Assembly: GCF_000428945.1 (NCBI RefSeq)
Contig: NZ_AUAX01000034.1
Span: forward strand, 1-64,000
Direction of reading: 5' to 3'
Source: Hamadaea tsunoensis DSM 44101
GTDB lineage: Bacteria > Actinomycetota > Actinomycetes > Mycobacteriales > Micromonosporaceae
Length of the DNA stretch: 64,000 nucleotides
The first letter of the stretch is position 1, and each line of letters starts with the position of its first letter. The position numbers and the translations under genes are program-made. Below, one piece after another: positions 22,066 to 29,609 of the stretch. A model generated the notes under the pieces. That model was given only the letters and a program-made list of their open reading frames with translations. It was not told the DNA's origin and made no database searches.

Positions 22066-22509
22066 ATGAGCACACCCGAGGTGGTCCTGGCCTACTGGAC
22101 CGAGCACCGGCAGCAGTTCCGCCAGTCCGAGGACCAGCGGTCCGTGCTCACGAACTACCTGCTCGTCATCACCGCCGGCCTCACCGGCCTCATCGCCGCC
22201 CAGCGCTTCGCCCTCGTCACCCTCCCGGCGGCCCTGCTCATCGCCGCCCTCGGCCTGTACGGCGCGCTCGCCGTGGCCAAGTACCACGAGCGGGCCTCCT
22301 ACCATCTCCAGCAGGCCCGCGCCCTGACGCGGACGCTCAAGGAACTCGGCGCGCTGGCCGACGACCCCCACCTCGACGAGCAGCGCGAAGACCACTACCG
22401 GCGGCACCCCCTGCTGCACCGCGTACGCCTGCATTGGCTCTGGACCGGCCTGCACCTGGCGATCGCGGTGTTCGGCGCGGTGCTCGCGGTCGTGATCCTC
22501 GCGGTCTGA
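22066..22509 (+). CDS. Small three-TM membrane protein, first gene of the TIR/FxSxx-like locus
   Basis: A 147-aa protein of no recognised family. Two adjacent membrane segments (NYLLVITAGLTGLIAAQRFA and LPAALLIAALGLYGALAVA) are followed by a charged helical loop (ERASYHLQQARALTRTLKEL) and a third segment at the C-terminus (WTGLHLAIAVFGAVLAVVIL). The layout recalls the 2TM SLATT-type proteins that pair with nucleotide-sensing effectors, but I cannot assert membership. It is separated by only 3 bp from the TIR gene, so they form an operon, and it may anchor or respond to the TIR protein. Confidence 0.6.
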   Translation: MSTPEVVLAYWTEHRQQFRQSEDQRSVLTNYLLVITAGLTGLIAAQRFALVTLPAALLIAALGLYGALAVAKYHERASYHLQQARALTRTLKELGALADDPHLDEQREDHYRRHPLLHRVRLHWLWTGLHLAIAVFGAVLAVVILAV

Positions 22510-22512
22510 CGG

Positions 22513-23661
22513 ATGGGCAGGGATTTCTTCATCAGCCACGCCACCGCGGACCGGCAGTGGGCGGAGTGGATCGCGGTCACGCTGGAGGCGGCGGGCTACA
22601 CGACGGTCGTCCAGTCGTTCGACTTCCGGCCCGGCACCGACTTCGCCCACGAGATGCAGCAAGCTCTCAGGACCTCGGGCCGCCTCATCGCGGTGCTCAG
22701 CCCGGACTACCTCGCCTCGGCCATGGCCGAGGCGGAGTGGCGCAGCTTCTTCGCCCAGGACCCCACCGGCGAGCTGCGAAAACTCCTGCCTGTCCGGATC
22801 GCCCCGGTCACCGGCACCGGCCTGCTCCAGACCCGCGTCTACGTGGACTTCGTCGGCGTCGGCCCGGCCGCCGCCCGCCGCCGACTCCTGGCCGCCGCCC
22901 ACCCACACCGCCCTCGCCCGACCACCGCCGCCTGGCCCGGCGCCGGCCCCGAGCCCGATCCGGCCGTGCCGGCGCACGGCGGCCGGCTGGCCGGCATCAT
23001 CGATGGGGCGATCCGCGGCGACCTCCCGCCCACCGTCGGGACACTGACCGGCACGCTGCGACCCCCCGCGTTCTATGTCAGCTACGCGCGCCCGTCGTCC
23101 GTACCGGGACCGCCACGCGAGGGGGCCTTCTTCGCGGCCCTGTCCCGGTCACTGTCCCTCGGCACCCGCCCCGACGTCGGCCAGGGTTACATCGACTTTC
23201 CCGCCACCGGCACCGACCTCTGGAATCCCGGCATACTCCGGGCCATCGCGAGCAGTCAGAGCCTCCTGCCGCTCATCTCCCCCCGCTACGTGCGCAGCGC
23301 CTTCTGCGCCCGCGAATGGGCGGCCTTCGCCGACCGTCCGGCCTACGCGACCACGGGCGGCCCCGCAGCACCAGGTGCCGCGATCGTGCCCGTCCTGTGG
23401 TCGCCAGTCGACCGGAAGACACTGCCCTCGGCGATCCGCCGGCAGCCCATGTTCGCCCCACGGCATCCGCGGACAGCCGAGGCGTACCAGGCGGAAGGGC
23501 TGCACGGGCTGCTGAGCCGCCACCCCCGCCTGTACGCCGTCGCCCTCGACGAACTCGCCACAGCGGTCGCGGGAGTGCTCGATGCGGTACGCGTACCGGC
23601 AGCGGCCCCTCTGCCCGGCACCCCACCCGTCGGATACGCCGACTGGACAGCAGGCGAATAG
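22513..23661 (+). CDS. fxsC: Double TIR-like protein with FxsC-type second domain
   Basis: A 382-aa protein. Residues 1-100 are a TIR domain starting RDFFISHATADRQWAEWIA, with the alpha-B loop (FRPGTDFAHEMQQAL) and the E in AEAEWRSFF at the position of the NADase glutamate of active TIRs. A proline-rich linker leads to a second TIR-like domain from about residue 175 (PPAFYVSYARP, then SLLPLISPRYVRSAFCAREWAAF), which resembles the TIR-like FxsC proteins of FxSxx-COOH systems. Such domains may degrade NAD or act as scaffolds. Context: upstream 3-TM gene, downstream candidate precursor and aKG-HExxH enzyme. Confidence 0.75.
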   Translation: MGRDFFISHATADRQWAEWIAVTLEAAGYTTVVQSFDFRPGTDFAHEMQQALRTSGRLIAVLSPDYLASAMAEAEWRSFFAQDPTGELRKLLPVRIAPVTGTGLLQTRVYVDFVGVGPAAARRRLLAAAHPHRPRPTTAAWPGAGPEPDPAVPAHGGRLAGIIDGAIRGDLPPTVGTLTGTLRPPAFYVSYARPSSVPGPPREGAFFAALSRSLSLGTRPDVGQGYIDFPATGTDLWNPGILRAIASSQSLLPLISPRYVRSAFCAREWAAFADRPAYATTGGPAAPGAAIVPVLWSPVDRKTLPSAIRRQPMFAPRHPRTAEAYQAEGLHGLLSRHPRLYAVALDELATAVAGVLDAVRVPAAAPLPGTPPVGYADWTAGE

Positions 23662-23708
23662 CCGACAGCTATGTGGATGGTCAGAGCCTCGGTCAGTACG
23701 CACGGTGC

Positions 23709-23737
23709 TTGGGGAACTACATATCTACACGTATGCT
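23709..23737 (+). promoter_or_regulatory. Candidate promoter for the precursor/aKG-HExxH pair
   Basis: TTGGGG at 23709-23714 and TATGCT at 23732-23737 are separated by 17 bp inside an unusually AT-rich stretch for this genome. The start point would be near 23744, giving a leader of about 75 nt before the precursor ATG at 23818 (GGGAGG upstream). This would let the precursor and enzyme be transcribed apart from the TIR genes. Confidence 0.5.
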
Positions 23738-23817
23738 TGTAAGAGACGCCGATCTGTCACCATGCCGGTACGCGCAGGCGGCCGCGGACATGGGCGGGCG
23801 TAGCGGGAGGCTGCAGG

Positions 23818-24036
23818 ATGGACACGCCCACGACCGAGGATCTCGCACACAACGACGTACCCGACGTGGCGGCGTCGCGCCTCGCTGATCTGCTGTCGGG
23901 ATCGAACGCGGAACTCCTGGCCTGCGCCGAACGATTGATCGCGGCGATCGACGGCCGATTGGAGACTTCGCTCGGATGGAACAGCTTTCTTCCGGAGGTT
24001 CCCTCCGCGCCACCGACGGGCCATTCGCAGCACTAG
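23818..24036 (+). CDS. Candidate modified-peptide precursor (FxsA-like)
   Basis: A 72-aa protein with an acidic N-terminal leader (MDTPTTEDLAHNDVPDVAAS), an amphipathic helix (RLADLLSGSNAELLACAERLIAAID) and a C-terminal tail GWNSFLPEVPSAPPTGHSQH. The acidic leader plus short tail, and position directly before a peptide-modifying enzyme of the aKG-HExxH family, fit a RiPP precursor. The body resembles FxsA proteins, whose extreme C-terminus is FxSxx; here no FxSxx is at the end, although an aromatic/Ser motif (WNSF) begins the tail. The last 61 nt overlap the enzyme gene in another frame. It could instead be a small structural partner of the system. Confidence 0.5.
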   Translation: MDTPTTEDLAHNDVPDVAASRLADLLSGSNAELLACAERLIAAIDGRLETSLGWNSFLPEVPSAPPTGHSQH

Positions 24037-25193
24037 CCGCCGGCGGCAGCGACCCGGCGAGCCTCGATCTCCTTGGCCGTACGCGGGTCAGCCGCTCGAA
24101 GCTGTTTCTGGCCCGGCTCTTCGCGGAACGACCGGACCTCGACGATGTCAAGGAGATCCTCGTCGCCGCCGACTGGGAGAACCCCGGCGCGGTCGCCCGA
24201 TTGATCGCGTACCCCTGGACGGCGGTGTGGCTGCAGCGGGCCGCCGCCGAGCCACGGCAGGCGGATGTCGACTATGGGCGAGGGCTGGCGCTGGCGGCGG
24301 CCTCGCGGGCCGAACTGACGGGCGTGGTCAGCGTTGCGCCCCAGTCAGGCAAGATCACCGTGCCGGGCCTCGGCGAGCTTCGCGGCCTGGGGCAGGACGA
24401 GCGGCGACTGACAGCGAAGGATCTGAACGGCCCCGACTGGTTCGGCCTCAAGTCGGTCACGGTGTCAGCGGGCGGACGCAACCTCTCCCTGACGCTCGAC
24501 GATCTCGATCCGTTCCGGCAATGCCTCTCCTACGGCGTCGCTCCTCACAATCCGGACGACTTTGTCCGCCGCACCCAAGCCGTGCTCTCGTCGGCCTGGG
24601 AACTGCTCACCGCATACGCACCTGCGCGGGCGGACGAACTCGCGGCCGGACTCACGGTCCTGACACCGTTGGCAGCCAACCTGATGGCCGGTGTCAGCGC
24701 CAGCCATCAGGAGGCCTACGGCGGCTTCGGCATGTCGCCGCAGACCGACCCGGCCGCGTTCGCCGCGACCATGATCCACGAGTTCCAGCACAGCAAGCTG
24801 AGCGCGCTGCACGCGTTGCTGCCGCTGTACGATCCCGCCGGCAACGAGCTCTACTTCGCTCCGTGGCGGCCGGATCCGCGGCCCCTCGGCGGGCTCCTGC
24901 AGGGAATCTACGCCTTCCTGTCGGTGGCTGGCTGGTGGCGGGACCTCATGGCTGCCCCGGCCGAGCAGCCGCGTGCGGCCCTTCAGTTCGCCACCTTGCG
25001 CGCCCAGGTCTGGCGCGCGCTCGAGCAGGTACACGATGCCGCTGGGCTCACGGAGGCCGGCCGGCGTTTCGTGGCCGCCGTCGCCCGGACCGCGGCGGAG
25101 CACAACGCGACACCGGTGGACGCCGTACACGACGCTCACGCCAGGAAGGAGCTCCAGCGCCTGGAGTCTGTCTGGCATGAGCGTCACGCCTGA
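23976..25193 (+). CDS. Stand-alone aKG-HExxH-type peptide beta-hydroxylase family protein
   Basis: A 405-aa protein with HEFQH at 268-272 (ATMIHEFQHSKLSALH), the signature of the HEXXH peptide-modification family (TIGR04267), now described as iron/alpha-ketoglutarate-dependent peptide beta-hydroxylases. The N-terminus (GPFAALAAGGSDPASLDLL) matches the usual start of the domain. In classical FxSxx systems this domain is fused C-terminally to a radical SAM/SPASM enzyme (FxsB); here no radical SAM domain (no CxxxCxxC) is present in the protein or the window. The ATG at 23976 overlaps the precursor by 61 nt. Predicted job: hydroxylation of side chains of the adjacent peptide. Confidence 0.8.
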   Translation: MEQLSSGGSLRATDGPFAALAAGGSDPASLDLLGRTRVSRSKLFLARLFAERPDLDDVKEILVAADWENPGAVARLIAYPWTAVWLQRAAAEPRQADVDYGRGLALAAASRAELTGVVSVAPQSGKITVPGLGELRGLGQDERRLTAKDLNGPDWFGLKSVTVSAGGRNLSLTLDDLDPFRQCLSYGVAPHNPDDFVRRTQAVLSSAWELLTAYAPARADELAAGLTVLTPLAANLMAGVSASHQEAYGGFGMSPQTDPAAFAATMIHEFQHSKLSALHALLPLYDPAGNELYFAPWRPDPRPLGGLLQGIYAFLSVAGWWRDLMAAPAEQPRAALQFATLRAQVWRALEQVHDAAGLTEAGRRFVAAVARTAAEHNATPVDAVHDAHARKELQRLESVWHERHA

Positions 25194-25202
25194 GCGCAGC
25201 GG

Positions 25203-28200
25203 TCACACCGTCGACGAATCGATGTCGCACTCCGCCCGCCGATGCCGCCGGGCGCCCTCGACCTCGGGGTGATTCTTGGAGAGCACCCGCTCGAGGGCAG
25301 CGATGTTGTCCGCGAGCAGCGCCGTCCCTTCCTTCTTCTCACCGAGATCGATCAGCAGGAGGGCATGATTCGTCGCGGCGTGCAAGGTGTATGGATGCAG
25401 CGCCCCCCGACGGACGGTCGCTGCCTCCAGGACCTGCTGGGTCAGCGTGCGTGCATCGGCGAGCTGATGCGCGCGGACCAGGTCGATCGCATAGTTGCTC
25501 AGCAGGGAGAGCAAGTAGGGATGATTCGACGGGAGCACCCGCCGCATGATCTCCAGCGTCCGCTCGTCCAGTTCTCGGGCATCCATGTCGTTGCCCTGCG
25601 CGCGGTGCACGATCGCCGTGTCGACCGCCGCCGCGAGCGTCAGCGGATACTCGGCGCCGTAGAGGTCGGTGAAGCCGTTGAGGGCGGTCGTGGACAGGCT
25701 GAACGCGTTGGCGAAGTCGCCGATCGTCCGGAGCGCGTTCGCATACGTCACCGTCGAGATCAGCGTGAACTGATGCTTCTCCCCGAACCGGGTGCTGCTG
25801 CTGCGGTAGTTCTCGCGGGACCGGGCCAGCGCCTCGTCCAGGCGACCGACCTTGCGCAGGGCCGCGGCCTCATGGTTCTGGGCCAGCAGCACAGCCCCGT
25901 GGTACGGGCCGAGTAGCTCGATGTGGGCGGGCAGTACCCGCTGCTGCAGCTGGAGAGCCTCGGCATAGCGGCCAAGGCCGTTGAGGTCGCGGGCCTGCAT
26001 GGAAAGGGCGAAGTAGGTCAGCGCGTCGCCCTCGCCGAGTGCGATGCGCGCCTGCCGGGCGGACTCGACATCGGATTCGTAGGCGCTTTGGTAGTCCCCG
26101 AGGACGTAGTGATCGAGGGCGACGGAGTTCAGCGCGCGGATCGTCGCGGGATCACCTTCACCCAGATTGTCCTGGCAGATCTGGAGATACTGCTCGTCGA
26201 GCGCCTGGGCCTCCTCGAACCGCCCGGCGATGCGGCGGTCCGCACCGAGGCTGTTCGCCGCGCCGATGGTGTACTCGTGGTCCTCGCCGAGGGCGTCGCG
26301 CATCGCCTCGAACGCGCGCTCGGTCTCCTCCCGGGCCTGGGCGAACTCGTTCATGACCCGCAGAGTGTCGGCATGGCGGCGCAGCGCGAGCAGGGTCAGG
26401 CCGTCGTTCCTGCCGAGGCCGCCTTCCTCGACCGGGCGGTTCCAGCGCAGCAGGATCTCCTCCGCCAGCGCCCGCGACCCTTCGAGGTCGCCGATGTTGT
26501 AGAGGTACCGCACCTGGTCGAGCAGCGTACGCCGACTGTCGATCTCGCCGTCGATGAGTCCGGCCGGCCCGATGTGCGGATAGATCTCGGCGTGCCGTTC
26601 CCAGGTCGAGCGGTCGTCCGGCGGGCCCGGGTTCGCGGCGGCCAGCAGCTGGCGGGCGTTGCGCTGGGCCTCTTCCCGCCGCTCCTCCGTCAGCTCTTCC
26701 CGCAGCACGCGTTGGATGAGGCGGTGCACCTGCAGCTTCTTGCTCGCGATCTCGACCTTCGCGAGGCCGAAGCGGCCGAGTTCGCGTACGGCGCGGGCGA
26801 TGTCGTTGCGCTCCTGCAGGAGGCTGCGCAGGGGTTCGCTGATGTCACCGCTGCGGCCGGACCAGAGCAGCGTCGTGGAAATCGGCTCCGGCCCCAGGTA
26901 CGCGAGCAGTTCCAGCAGTTTCGCGGCGCCTTCGGACTTCTCGCGCAGCCGGCTGAGCGCCATGCCGACCAGGGTGAGGACGGTGGTCGGGTACTGCCGG
27001 GGGCGGCCGTCGTCGAGCAGGTCGGTGGCTTTGCGGTCGAACTCCTTGAGGTAGTCGTCGACCGAGGTCATGGTGGTGATCAGCCAGCTGGCCGCCTGCT
27101 CCAGCGCCAGCGGCAGGTCGCCCAGCTGCTCGGCGAGCCGGTCGGCGTCCCGGTCGGAGATCTCGGGGCGCCGGCGCTGCAGCAGTTCCTTGCTCTCGGC
27201 CCGGGTGAAGACGTCGACCTGCAGCGTCGCCGAGGTGGTGACCGCCCAGCCGGGGTCGCGCGAGGTGACGATCACGTGCCCGCCCGAGGTGGGGATCAGA
27301 TCGTCGAGGCTGGTCGGCTCGGCCGCGTTGTCGTAGACCAGCAGCCACTTCAGCTCGGTCGTGTACGCGAGCGCGTCCAGGACGCCGCGGACGGTCTGGT
27401 CCATGGTCTGGCCGATCGGTGTTCCGAGGCGGCCGGCCAGGGCGGACAGGGAGGAGCGGACGGTCGACTGGTCCTCGGCCGGCACCCACCAGATCAATTG
27501 ATAATCGTCGACATGACGATAAACGTACTCGATGGCGATCTGAGTCTTTCCGACGCCGCCGAAGCCGTGCAGAGTCGCCTCCGGCAGCACGGACGCCCGC
27601 CGCTCGGCGAGCAGCGCCACCTCGAGCCGATCCAGGATCTCGTGGCGACCGGTGAAGTTCGGATTACGGGCGGGAATGCCGCCCCGAATGGCCGACTCCG
27701 CCACGATCTGCGGGGACGCCGATTCGATGATGATTGTTTTCCGCACGTCCGGCTCCGGATCATCGCTATCGAGAATTGATACGTCATTGATTAACGGACG
27801 AAGCTCCTGGTAGTGGCGTGCGGTGTAGGAGCGGGCGTCGGCCAATTGGGCCTCGTTCACTCCCAGTCGCAGTGCCACTCGGGCCACCCACGCCTGCAGT
27901 CGAGTCCGGTCTTCGTCCCATTGCGGACCGTCCATTGCATGGCTCAGGCAGTCGGCGAAAGCGAGCATGGCCGCCACACCCCACCGCTCCGAGTGCTCCC
28001 AGCCGATCGACTCCGTGATCTTCACCAGCGGATGGTCGGACCGGAACCGGCCGTCCGCGACCGCACCGGCCGCCGCCAGCACGTCGTCCTGGTCGAGATC
28101 GGGCAGGATCTCCAGCAGGTCGACCTCGCACTCCCAGCGCACGAGCAGCCGTTCGGTCTTCGCCAGGGAGTTCATCCTGGGAAAGAGGTTCCTCGCCACC

Positions 28201-28427
28201 CGGGTGAGGCCCGTCAGGTCCCGCGACGACTGCTCATACGCCAGGATGATGCTCAGCAGATCAAGTTGCGGCTCCTGATGCCGCTCCGGAGCCAGCCCCA
28301 CACCGAGCTCGCTCTCCAGCAGGTTCAGATAGAGCGTACGGGTCTTCTCCTGGCGGAACGCGGAAATCGTCAGCAGGGAGTCGCACACCTGCTGCAGAAG
28401 CGTCGACCTCATGCGAAACTGGCTCAT
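25203..28427 (-). CDS. fxsT: NB-ARC/TPR protein of FxSxx-COOH systems (FxsT-like)
   Basis: A 1,074-aa STAND-type protein. About 270 residues of N-terminal helical domain precede an NB-ARC ATPase with Walker A GFGGVGKTQIA (near residue 288), Walker B KWLLVYDNA and the GLPLAL-like GDLPLALEQAA. From about residue 640 onward there are tandem tetratricopeptide repeats (GRFEEAQALDEQYLQI, GDYQSAYESDVESARQ, GRYAEALQLQQRVLP, and more). The order fits the FxSxx-COOH system tetratricopeptide protein. It converges on the aKG-HExxH gene with 9 bp between stops. STAND proteins act as ligand-triggered oligomerising switches; its trigger here is unknown. Confidence 0.82.
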   Translation of the reverse strand: MSQFRMRSTLLQQVCDSLLTISAFRQEKTRTLYLNLLESELGVGLAPERHQEPQLDLLSIILAYEQSSRDLTGLTRVARNLFPRMNSLAKTERLLVRWECEVDLLEILPDLDQDDVLAAAGAVADGRFRSDHPLVKITESIGWEHSERWGVAAMLAFADCLSHAMDGPQWDEDRTRLQAWVARVALRLGVNEAQLADARSYTARHYQELRPLINDVSILDSDDPEPDVRKTIIIESASPQIVAESAIRGGIPARNPNFTGRHEILDRLEVALLAERRASVLPEATLHGFGGVGKTQIAIEYVYRHVDDYQLIWWVPAEDQSTVRSSLSALAGRLGTPIGQTMDQTVRGVLDALAYTTELKWLLVYDNAAEPTSLDDLIPTSGGHVIVTSRDPGWAVTTSATLQVDVFTRAESKELLQRRRPEISDRDADRLAEQLGDLPLALEQAASWLITTMTSVDDYLKEFDRKATDLLDDGRPRQYPTTVLTLVGMALSRLREKSEGAAKLLELLAYLGPEPISTTLLWSGRSGDISEPLRSLLQERNDIARAVRELGRFGLAKVEIASKKLQVHRLIQRVLREELTEERREEAQRNARQLLAAANPGPPDDRSTWERHAEIYPHIGPAGLIDGEIDSRRTLLDQVRYLYNIGDLEGSRALAEEILLRWNRPVEEGGLGRNDGLTLLALRRHADTLRVMNEFAQAREETERAFEAMRDALGEDHEYTIGAANSLGADRRIAGRFEEAQALDEQYLQICQDNLGEGDPATIRALNSVALDHYVLGDYQSAYESDVESARQARIALGEGDALTYFALSMQARDLNGLGRYAEALQLQQRVLPAHIELLGPYHGAVLLAQNHEAAALRKVGRLDEALARSRENYRSSSTRFGEKHQFTLISTVTYANALRTIGDFANAFSLSTTALNGFTDLYGAEYPLTLAAAVDTAIVHRAQGNDMDARELDERTLEIMRRVLPSNHPYLLSLLSNYAIDLVRAHQLADARTLTQQVLEAATVRRGALHPYTLHAATNHALLLIDLGEKKEGTALLADNIAALERVLSKNHPEVEGARRHRRAECDIDSSTV

Positions 28428-28901
28428 ACGCGCACCGCCCCACTCACGGCCGGCCGTGGGCGCACGGCGTCCGGAAGCCGGTCCAGCGACTCGGGCCAGG
28501 AGCTATCGATGAGCGGCGACACACAACCATTCAACCGCGATCCGGCGCCCGGCACATCCATCGAGCGACCCCCATCTCCCGGTCCGGTCGGCGGCACACC
28601 CCGGCGAGTCCGCGACCCGGGCGACAGCGGCTCTTCCCGCCGAAGTTTATCCACATGCGACCGAAGATCACCTTCCCCCCGCCGAGGTATTCCGGCAGCC
28701 GTCCGGACCGGATCGCGAAGCATGATCAGCTGAGTTCGCGCATCCACCGTGAACGCGATCACACCGAGGGGCGGCGCGGGAATCGGGCCGCCCGCCATGC
28801 GCCTTGTTCCGGAGAGGCTCTGGTTGCCCTTCTTGTCGGCCGGTACGGGTACCCTTGGCTCTGCTTACAGATTCCTCCAGGCCGGGGCGGGTTCACTGAC
28901 T
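28428..28901. other. Gene-free 474-bp divergent region between fxsT and ideR
   Basis: No coding frame with family resemblance, no RNA gene and no clear palindrome is seen here. It must carry the promoters of fxsT (leftward) and ideR (rightward). The ideR frame stays open upstream to 28749, but that segment is not family-like, and mycobacterial IdeR begins close to the VDTTEMYL motif, so it is treated as untranslated. Confidence 0.5.
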
Positions 28902-29609
28902 ATGCGGCAGCAGGCGGCGACAGTTCACAAACATGATCTCGTGGACACCACCGAGATGTACCTTCGCACCATCCTCGAGCTGGAAGAGGAAGGTGTTCCC
29001 CCGCTGCGCGCGCGTATCGCCGAGCGGCTGCACCAGAGCGGGCCGACCGTGAGCCAGACCGTCGCCCGGATGGAGCGCGACGGTCTGCTCAACATCGTGG
29101 AGAGCGACCGGCATCTGGAGCTGACCGAGGACGGCCGCGAGCACGCGGTCGCGGTCATGCGTAAGCACCGTCTCGCCGAACTGCTGCTGGTGAACGTGAT
29201 CGGCATGCCCTACGAGGAGGCCCACGAAGAGGCCTGCCGGTGGGAGCACGTCATGAGCGACACCGTCGAGAAGCGGGTCTACGAACTGCTGAACCGGCCG
29301 ACCCGCTCGCCCTACGGCAACCCGATTCCGGGCCTCTCCGCGCTCGACAGCGCGCCCCCGGCGGCCTCCAGCGACGCCGAGCGCAACCTTGCCTTCCCGG
29401 GGCTCACCGGATCGGTGATCGTGCGGCGGATCTGCGAGAGCGTGCAGACGGACGCGGAGGTTCTGCGCCAGTTGCACGCGGCCGGGGTCGACCCGGGCGC
29501 GACCGTCACCGTGGCCCAGGAGCGCGACGGCGTCACGATCGACCGCTCCGGCGAGCAGGTGCGCCTGCCCCGCGAGGTCGCCTCCCGCGTGTTCGTCACC
29601 GCCCGGTAG
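28902..29609 (+). CDS. ideR: IdeR/DtxR-type iron-dependent repressor
   Basis: A 235-aa protein whose N-terminal two-thirds closely follow mycobacterial IdeR: VDTTEMYLRTILELEEEGV, RIAERLHQSGPTVSQTVARMERDGL (recognition helix region), DRHLELTEDGR, AVMRKHRLAE, and EEACRWEHVMSDTVEKRV, which carries metal ligands. NPIPGL and a C-terminal SH3-like domain follow. With Fe(II) bound it should repress siderophore and iron-uptake genes. The ATG at 28902 was chosen because it begins 13 residues before the conserved VDTTEMYL. A strong terminator follows. Confidence 0.9.
   Translation: MRQQAATVHKHDLVDTTEMYLRTILELEEEGVPPLRARIAERLHQSGPTVSQTVARMERDGLLNIVESDRHLELTEDGREHAVAVMRKHRLAELLLVNVIGMPYEEAHEEACRWEHVMSDTVEKRVYELLNRPTRSPYGNPIPGLSALDSAPPAASSDAERNLAFPGLTGSVIVRRICESVQTDAEVLRQLHAAGVDPGATVTVAQERDGVTIDRSGEQVRLPREVASRVFVTAR

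Follow-up and report, generated by a model that had tools for sequence, protein, structure and literature searches.

A relative of the FxSxx-COOH peptide systems without a local radical SAM enzyme in Hamadaea tsunoensis

Results

Organization of the locus

The DNA analyzed here is a stretch of 64,000 nucleotides (the window) from contig NZ_AUAX01000034.1 of the soil actinobacterium Hamadaea tsunoensis DSM 44101, which has a genome of 9.48 Mb; the contig is called C31 below, and positions are those of the whole stretch. Family scans place five genes at positions 22066-28427, namely those of a membrane protein, a TIR/FxsC-like protein, a precursor peptide, an alpha-ketoglutarate (alphaKG)-HExxH enzyme and a convergent EAD2-NB-ARC-TPR protein. 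We propose that the last three would constitute an offshoot of the FxSxx peptide systems that is free of the radical S-adenosylmethionine (rSAM) enzyme. An earlier note, made from the sequence alone, had named TIR/FxsC, short peptide, alphaKG-HExxH and NB-ARC/TPR FxsT-type genes at this locus, together with the lack of an rSAM/SPASM protein. Both observations were borne out. The coordinates and domains agree, with the FxsC and NB-ARC scores just below their cut-offs, and TIGR04269, the FxsB model, has no match on C31 at E <= 0.001, nor was FxsB found near the enzyme by tblastn.

The FxsA-like precursor, P0003, is a 72-residue protein encoded on the forward strand at 23818-24036, with a candidate ribosome-binding site (GGGAGG, 23805-23810, +) 7 nucleotides upstream of its ATG. 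Its core, W54-N55-S56-F57-L58, is encoded at 23977-23991 (+). The free-standing enzyme, P0004 (405 residues; 23976-25193, +), scores 163 bits against TIGR04267 (cut-off 40) and carries the motif HEFQH at residues 268-272 (24777-24791, +), of which H268, E269 and H272 are invariant in a 34-sequence alignment. It thus belongs to the alphaKG-HExxH family by score and by its intact motif. The FxsT-type protein, P0005 (1,074 residues; 25203-28427, -), scores 808 bits against NF040586 (cut-off 300). It consists of an EAD2 domain (Pfam; residues 16-95, 31 bits against a cut-off of 23.8), an NB-ARC domain (residues 285-448, 21.7 bits, just below the cut-off of 23.5) with the nucleotide-binding motif GFGGVGKT, and TPRs. 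A consensus promoter scan revealed no promoter-like site.

The precursor is a diverged FxSxx-type peptide

In a search with a profile built from six relatives, with the window left out, P0003 ranked first among the 469 open reading frames of the window (E 1.1e-12; runner-up 0.21), and its leader alone gave E 2.7e-7. Compared with 2,000 shuffles, the full protein scored 42.8 bits against 13.9 for the best shuffle, and the leader 25.4 against 15.6. Judged by this homology, the 72-residue frame is a genuine precursor gene, beyond chance.

When P0003 is aligned to classical FxsA sequences, its GWNSF falls on AFQSF. The core is internal: 14 residues follow WNSFL, ending in GHSQH, and this C-terminal extension varies in sequence and length among the relatives described below. 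The F-x-S-x-x-COOH precursor model TIGR04268 (cut-off 28) does not match P0003; among six precursors of the clade described below it matches one, from Hamadaea (23.5 bits, E 4.7e-5), and the two classical FxsAs of the H. tsunoensis genome also fall below the cut-off, at 24.0 and 22.3 bits. The description of P0003 as an acidic-leader peptide was a loose one; what stands is a diverged FxSxx-type precursor with the core WNSFL. By eye, with its internal core and no run of four acidic residues, it fits none of the four peptide types (FxSxx, RxD, acidic and FtsH) given in the accessible text of PMC7159879.

Related cores also occur beside rSAM genes. In three rSAM-containing Micromonospora loci (L124, L131 and L133) the precursor ends in GWNSAM-COOH, a classical FxSxx terminus except that Trp stands where Phe is expected; the L131 precursor exceeds the TIGR04268 cut-off. 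The precursor of a further rSAM-containing locus, L121, reads ..GWQSHLP. The idea that Trp marks the loss of rSAM was rejected on account of these four loci.

A clade of loci without rSAM

A scan of contigs with P0004 alone returned nothing, and an alignment of the enzyme was used instead. The best 80 of its 121 relatives were kept and combined with 25 genus and family loci, two from the H. tsunoensis genome and the window, giving 108 loci, or 97 after the removal of 11 duplicates. In a careful tree of 41 chosen rows, 15 loci group together as a clade (support 100/98); in a quick tree of 67 rows the support is 67 for the clade alone and 90 with L121 included. The members come from Hamadaea, Actinoplanes, Micromonospora and Catellatospora, all Micromonosporaceae. 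In a family-wide profile search, 15 of 354 genomes scored at least 369.9 bits and the next 336.7, a gap that arises partly by construction, the profile having been built from the members.

A W-N-S precursor lies directly 5′ of the enzyme gene in all 15 clade loci, counting the window (14 with GWNSFL and one with WNSAI; that of L120 was read by eye), so that the 72-residue gene is conserved next to the enzyme, as the earlier note had required of a real system. No rSAM gene lies between precursor and enzyme in any of the 15; for L117 and L128, with less than 0.8 kb of upstream DNA, the absence of rSAM covers only that stretch. W81 and L170 set the enzymes of the clade apart from the others, as does H309 in 13 of the 15, where the window enzyme has Gln. 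The FxsT gene is convergent with the enzyme gene in 13 of the 15 loci; it lies on the opposite side in L118, and none was found in L128. In M. phytophila (L120, L214) the FxsT match is split in two at its N-terminal third, through either a break or an assembly error.

Precursor and enzyme genes overlap

The ATG of P0004 is nested in the Gly-Trp codons of the precursor core, and its candidate ribosome-binding site (GGAGA, 23961-23965, +) lies within the precursor gene. At the corresponding place in 14 clade loci, the codon is ATG in 4, TTG in 2, GTG in 1 and CTG in 7, these seven being from Micromonospora; the CTG loci have an in-frame ATG farther upstream as an alternative possible start. A Shine-Dalgarno-like site precedes the enzyme start in 6 of the 14.

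We considered whether the core is conserved as a mere by-product of the nested start. In the 14 GWNSFL loci the nucleotide pattern shows synonymous variation at the core Ser, Phe and Leu codons, part of which is non-synonymous in the enzyme frame; the Asn codon is forced to be AAC, as AAT would create a stop in that frame. In L118 the genes do not overlap and WNS is retained (WNSAINV). The synonymous core changes and L118 thus suggest selection on the peptide itself, not on the start codon alone. In the pairs tested, dN/dS is 0-0.44 for the precursor, with few differences, and 0.19-0.32 for the enzyme (6 pairs); both genes look to be under purifying selection.

The enzyme and its free-standing form

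An AlphaFold2 model of P0004, computed from the 34-sequence alignment (pLDDT 92.5), was compared with solved structures. It most resembles SjiH (22ob, TMq 0.82), followed by the HExxH domain of ChlB (8s5f, TMq 0.51-0.56); the predicted fold is thus of the ChlB/SjiH type. The earlier note had treated the free-standing HExxH domain as an odd feature. It is ordinary: rSAM and HExxH are encoded in separate, adjacent frames in both other Fxs systems of the H. tsunoensis genome, at C3:1059-6984 (L017) and on C19 (L016:1665-9721), as well as in 13 rSAM-containing loci that were chosen for short HExxH frames. It is the missing rSAM that sets the locus apart. The HExxH copies on C3 and C19 were rejected as orthologues of P0004, to which they are 33% and 31% identical (tblastn), and rSAM lies adjacent to each.

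FxsB genes elsewhere in the genomes

In the H. tsunoensis genome, TIGR04269 gives five matches at E <= 0.001, two of them above the cut-off of 370 bits, on C19 and C3. An orphan fxsB had been suggested as worth a search; two FxsB genes are indeed present, but neither is an orphan, each having its own FxsA (core AFQSFTSAS on C3 and AAFGNAV on C19). In the FxsT of the C3 system (L017:3727-6984, -), EAD2 and NB-ARC are separated by a VMAP-M0 region, which links this protein to vWA-MoxR ternary systems.

FxsB above the cut-off is encoded elsewhere in 13 of the 15 clade genomes, the window's included. The two others retain the peptide system despite having none, namely M. arida (G198, a 100% complete draft; best TIGR04269 score 75.8 bits) and M. 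phytophila (G325, 87% complete; 79.2 bits). The 16 FxsB copies compared from the clade genomes belong to several lineages, with an F-type FxsA read upstream of 14; none was recognized upstream of the remaining two (G246 and G145c).

EAD2-proteases accompany the rSAM-free loci

Gene-by-gene reading of three clade loci (L063, L064 and L065) revealed a trypsin-EAD2 gene directly before the FxsT gene, abutting or overlapping its start, and a caspase-EAD2 gene stands before FxsT in L072/L118. In a tblastn search with four trypsin-EAD2 and caspase-EAD2 proteins, an EAD2-protease match was obtained at 12 of the 15 clade loci, at 1 of 57 rSAM-containing loci (L121) and at 19 of 24 other rSAM-free loci, these being raw counts that ignore relatedness. 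Pfam confirmed EAD2 in three tested loci of these 19 and in L121. The clade loci without a match are the window, L117 (where the contig ends within FxsT) and L128 (where no FxsT was found). In the window's genome no EAD2-protease was found: the only EAD2 matches are the FxsT proteins of C3 and the window, and matches of a trypsin-EAD2 profile span the protease part only. At the place of the relatives' trypsin-EAD2 gene, divergent from FxsT, the window has a gene for a DtxR-type iron-dependent repressor (28749-29609, +).

The 24 other rSAM-free loci are mostly from Streptomyces, and those precursors that could be identified are RxD-like; the 19 with a match respond to the caspase-EAD2 query. 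Streptomyces loci such as L134, L140 and L154 have an rSAM-free HExxH gene, some with RxD-like precursors (..NPGRAE, ..RRVD).

The TIR gene and its neighbour

The first two genes encode a 147-residue membrane protein, P0001 (22066-22509, +; NCBIfam SLATT_3 at E 0.029, 14.4 bits against a cut-off of 45), and P0002 (22513-23661, +), in which a TIR_2 domain (PF13676, 1.5e-37) is followed by a domain resembling FxsC (NF040588, 129.6 bits against a cut-off of 130). In the DNA fetched for the remaining 14 loci of the clade, tblastn gave no match for either. Homologues of P0001 occur in 10 of 200 family genomes, the window's own counted. Of five examined with 13-15 kb of surroundings, four are located 3′ of a TIR-NB-ARC gene and the fifth precedes a TIR gene; no HExxH match was found in those surroundings. 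The TIR half of P0002 is 46-57% identical to the TIRs at four of the five and 34% to that at the fifth. At more distant relatives of P0001 (L200-L205), tblastn detected no TIR or NB-ARC within 1.5 kb on each side. A second relative of P0001 in one genome (G118:C1:1985315-1985702; L206-L208) runs across three frames and is apparently broken.

Since the pair is unmatched at the other clade loci, and since the five relatives of P0001 read with wider surroundings pair with TIR or TIR-NB-ARC genes without HExxH, P0001 and P0002 are probably a separate neighbouring module, possibly recruited, and not a conserved part of the peptide system. The earlier reading of the TIR and STAND proteins as signs of signalling or defence is therefore kept in part: the gene content fits a conflict or signalling system, but the TIR pair probably stands apart from it.

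Discussion

Relation to known systems

The locus shares with the FxSxx-COOH systems (FxsA/FxsB/FxsC/FxsT; TIGR04268, TIGR04269, NF040588, NF040586) the precursor leader, the position of the core, the HExxH enzyme and FxsT; the FxsC-like gene nearby scores at the very edge of its model's cut-off. It differs in having no local rSAM, and in that W-N-S-F-L is internal, in place of a C-terminal F-x-S-x-x. It also resembles the systems of PMC7159879 (2020), in which, according to the accessible text, an HExxH 'metallopeptidase' and a precursor of one of four peptide types are combined with an AP-ATPase, rSAM accompanying the FxSxx and FtsH types only. With the rSAM-free RxD and acidic types the locus has in common an HExxH protein, a small, variable precursor and an AP-ATPase with TPRs (the NB-ARC score being below its cut-off); unlike the systems described in that text, it has a W-N-S-F-L core, an AP-ATPase unfused to a vWA protein and a separate HExxH group in the tree.

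The enzyme family includes other free-standing members with no fused rSAM, namely PflC/PosC, PesO and BpmH (PMC12636437, PMC13060819 and PMC12257519, as far as these are accessible; the role of BpmH is a prediction). These lie in biosynthetic clusters and not by STAND proteins. Among the substrates described there, the PflA core is a Gln run with ARMD and the PesA core has Pro before R(V/T)DN, both unlike W-N-S-F-L. Finally, pairs of a peptidase and a STAND protein that both bear EAD2 are found at the clade relatives (EAD2-NB-ARC-TPR with EAD2-trypsin or EAD2-caspase), but not in the window's genome.

The locus had been put forward as an undescribed system. RSAM-free relatives with other peptide types were thus already published in 2020, but the variant itself appears to be undescribed: the text of PMC7159879, its source data aside, names no type that combines W-N-S-F-L and EAD2-trypsin, and we recognized no description of a W-N-S-F-L rSAM-free type in the open-licence literature, covered mostly at the level of abstracts. 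The coupling of peptide processing to AP-ATPases is predicted in the accessible text of PMC7159879; in the same literature we saw no assay of it.

Proposed mechanism and alternatives

We propose that the leader of the precursor directs the HExxH enzyme, which would depend on alphaKG and Fe(II), to a linear GWNSFL, which the enzyme alone would modify, probably by beta-hydroxylation and with no cyclophane formed. Enzyme and substrate would be made together, because the start codon of the one sits in the core codons of the other. The modified peptide, probably after proteolysis, would then signal within an NLR-like conflict circuit or act as its effector. In most relatives, the STAND protein would use its EAD2 to recruit a trypsin or caspase fused to EAD2, a protease that the window lost or never had. 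We consider this reading, with the enzyme acting alone on a peptide that serves an NLR-like system, to have an even chance of being right. As to the residue modified, the accessible parts of the literature describe hydroxylation of His, Asp, Phe, Gln and Pro by the family (PMC13060819), with PesO acting on Pro (PMC13060819) and PflC/PosC modifying Gln or, in a variant of the substrate, Asn (PMC12636437). By analogy, Asn55 would be our preferred candidate, followed by Phe57. No rSAM is listed for the pfl and pes clusters in the same accessible parts (PMC12636437, PMC13060819).

Several points weigh against the proposal. One is that an FxsB encoded elsewhere, such as those of C3 and C19, may crosslink W54 to S56 in trans, the local HExxH enzyme then hydroxylating the cyclophane as in ChlB. 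The HExxH domain of ChlB, as described in the accessible part of PMC12636437, requires a preinstalled cyclophane. Two strong FxsB genes are available in the window's genome, most clade genomes have FxsB above the cut-off, and one FxsB lineage is common to seven clade Micromonospora (91-98% identical). A cyclophane could also plausibly form at W-N-S itself, which occurs as GWNSAM in three rSAM-containing loci; L121, which the quick tree places with the clade, has GWQSHLP. The earlier expectation that only hydroxylation would be possible thus holds for the locus, which has no FxsB of its own, but not for the genome, in which two complete rSAM systems could act in trans. On the other side stand the absence of rSAM between precursor and enzyme throughout the clade, the several lineages of FxsB with their own F-type FxsAs, which speak against a dedicated trans partner, and the absence of FxsB above the cut-off from the complete draft of M. 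arida. The last point is tempered in two ways: with its 15 matches to the general Radical_SAM model, M. arida could supply a different rSAM enzyme for this step, and it is close to the FxsB-bearing M. noduli, so that its loss of FxsB is recent and is weak evidence for long-term independence. We regard action of FxsB in trans as unlikely, though it deserves serious consideration. Beyond this alternative, the choice of Asn is weakened by the fact that the one instance of Asn hydroxylation by the family that we know of concerns a variant substrate. The EAD2-protease not found for the window leaves the proposed circuit incomplete there, and evidence for phage defence is nil, a PADLOC scan of the five locus proteins having matched the TIR protein alone.

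Two further explanations concern the enzyme's chemistry and the state of the window copy. The enzyme may mainly cleave the peptide, hydrolytically or oxidatively, and so free a C-terminal fragment. According to the accessible part of PMC12636437, PflC oxidatively removes a C-terminal tetrapeptide and shows proteolytic activity without the leader, that of PMC7159879 predicts cleavage by its 'MPTase', and P0003 does extend beyond its core. However, the extension is unconserved, the family is annotated as beta-hydroxylase, the predicted model folds like SjiH and ChlB, and an EAD2-protease is available at most clade loci, so we consider cleavage as the main activity improbable. The window copy may also be a decaying, non-working remnant that has lost both rSAM and EAD2-protease, to which the long branch of its enzyme in the tree would correspond, as would the EAD2-protease matched at 12 of the 15 clade loci and not here. 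Its reading frames are nevertheless open, the GWNSFL core, the HEFQH motif and the GFGGVGKT motif are present, and ribosome-binding-like sites precede precursor and enzyme; we give decay very little credence.

Implications

The proposal that the enzyme acts alone on a linear core can be carried further. An NLR-like lineage may have dropped its rSAM while keeping an aromatic-Asn-Ser target, with a lone alphaKG-HExxH enzyme making a hydroxylated or self-crosslinked peptide, which an EAD2-recruited protease would release to arm or gate the STAND ATPase. Such an arrangement would be an immune checkpoint sensitive to O2 and alphaKG, a scenario that we offer as tentative and on the whole doubtful.

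The locus is a natural test of the purpose of the rSAM step. Since F-x-S loci with rSAM and W-N-S loci without it share the leader, the enzyme family and the STAND partner, it is possible to examine the hydroxylase by itself, on a W-N-S-F-L peptide that seems to have descended from a cyclophane substrate. Oxygen-dependent peptide modification would thereby be linked to protease-coupled, apoptosome-like ATPases of bacteria.

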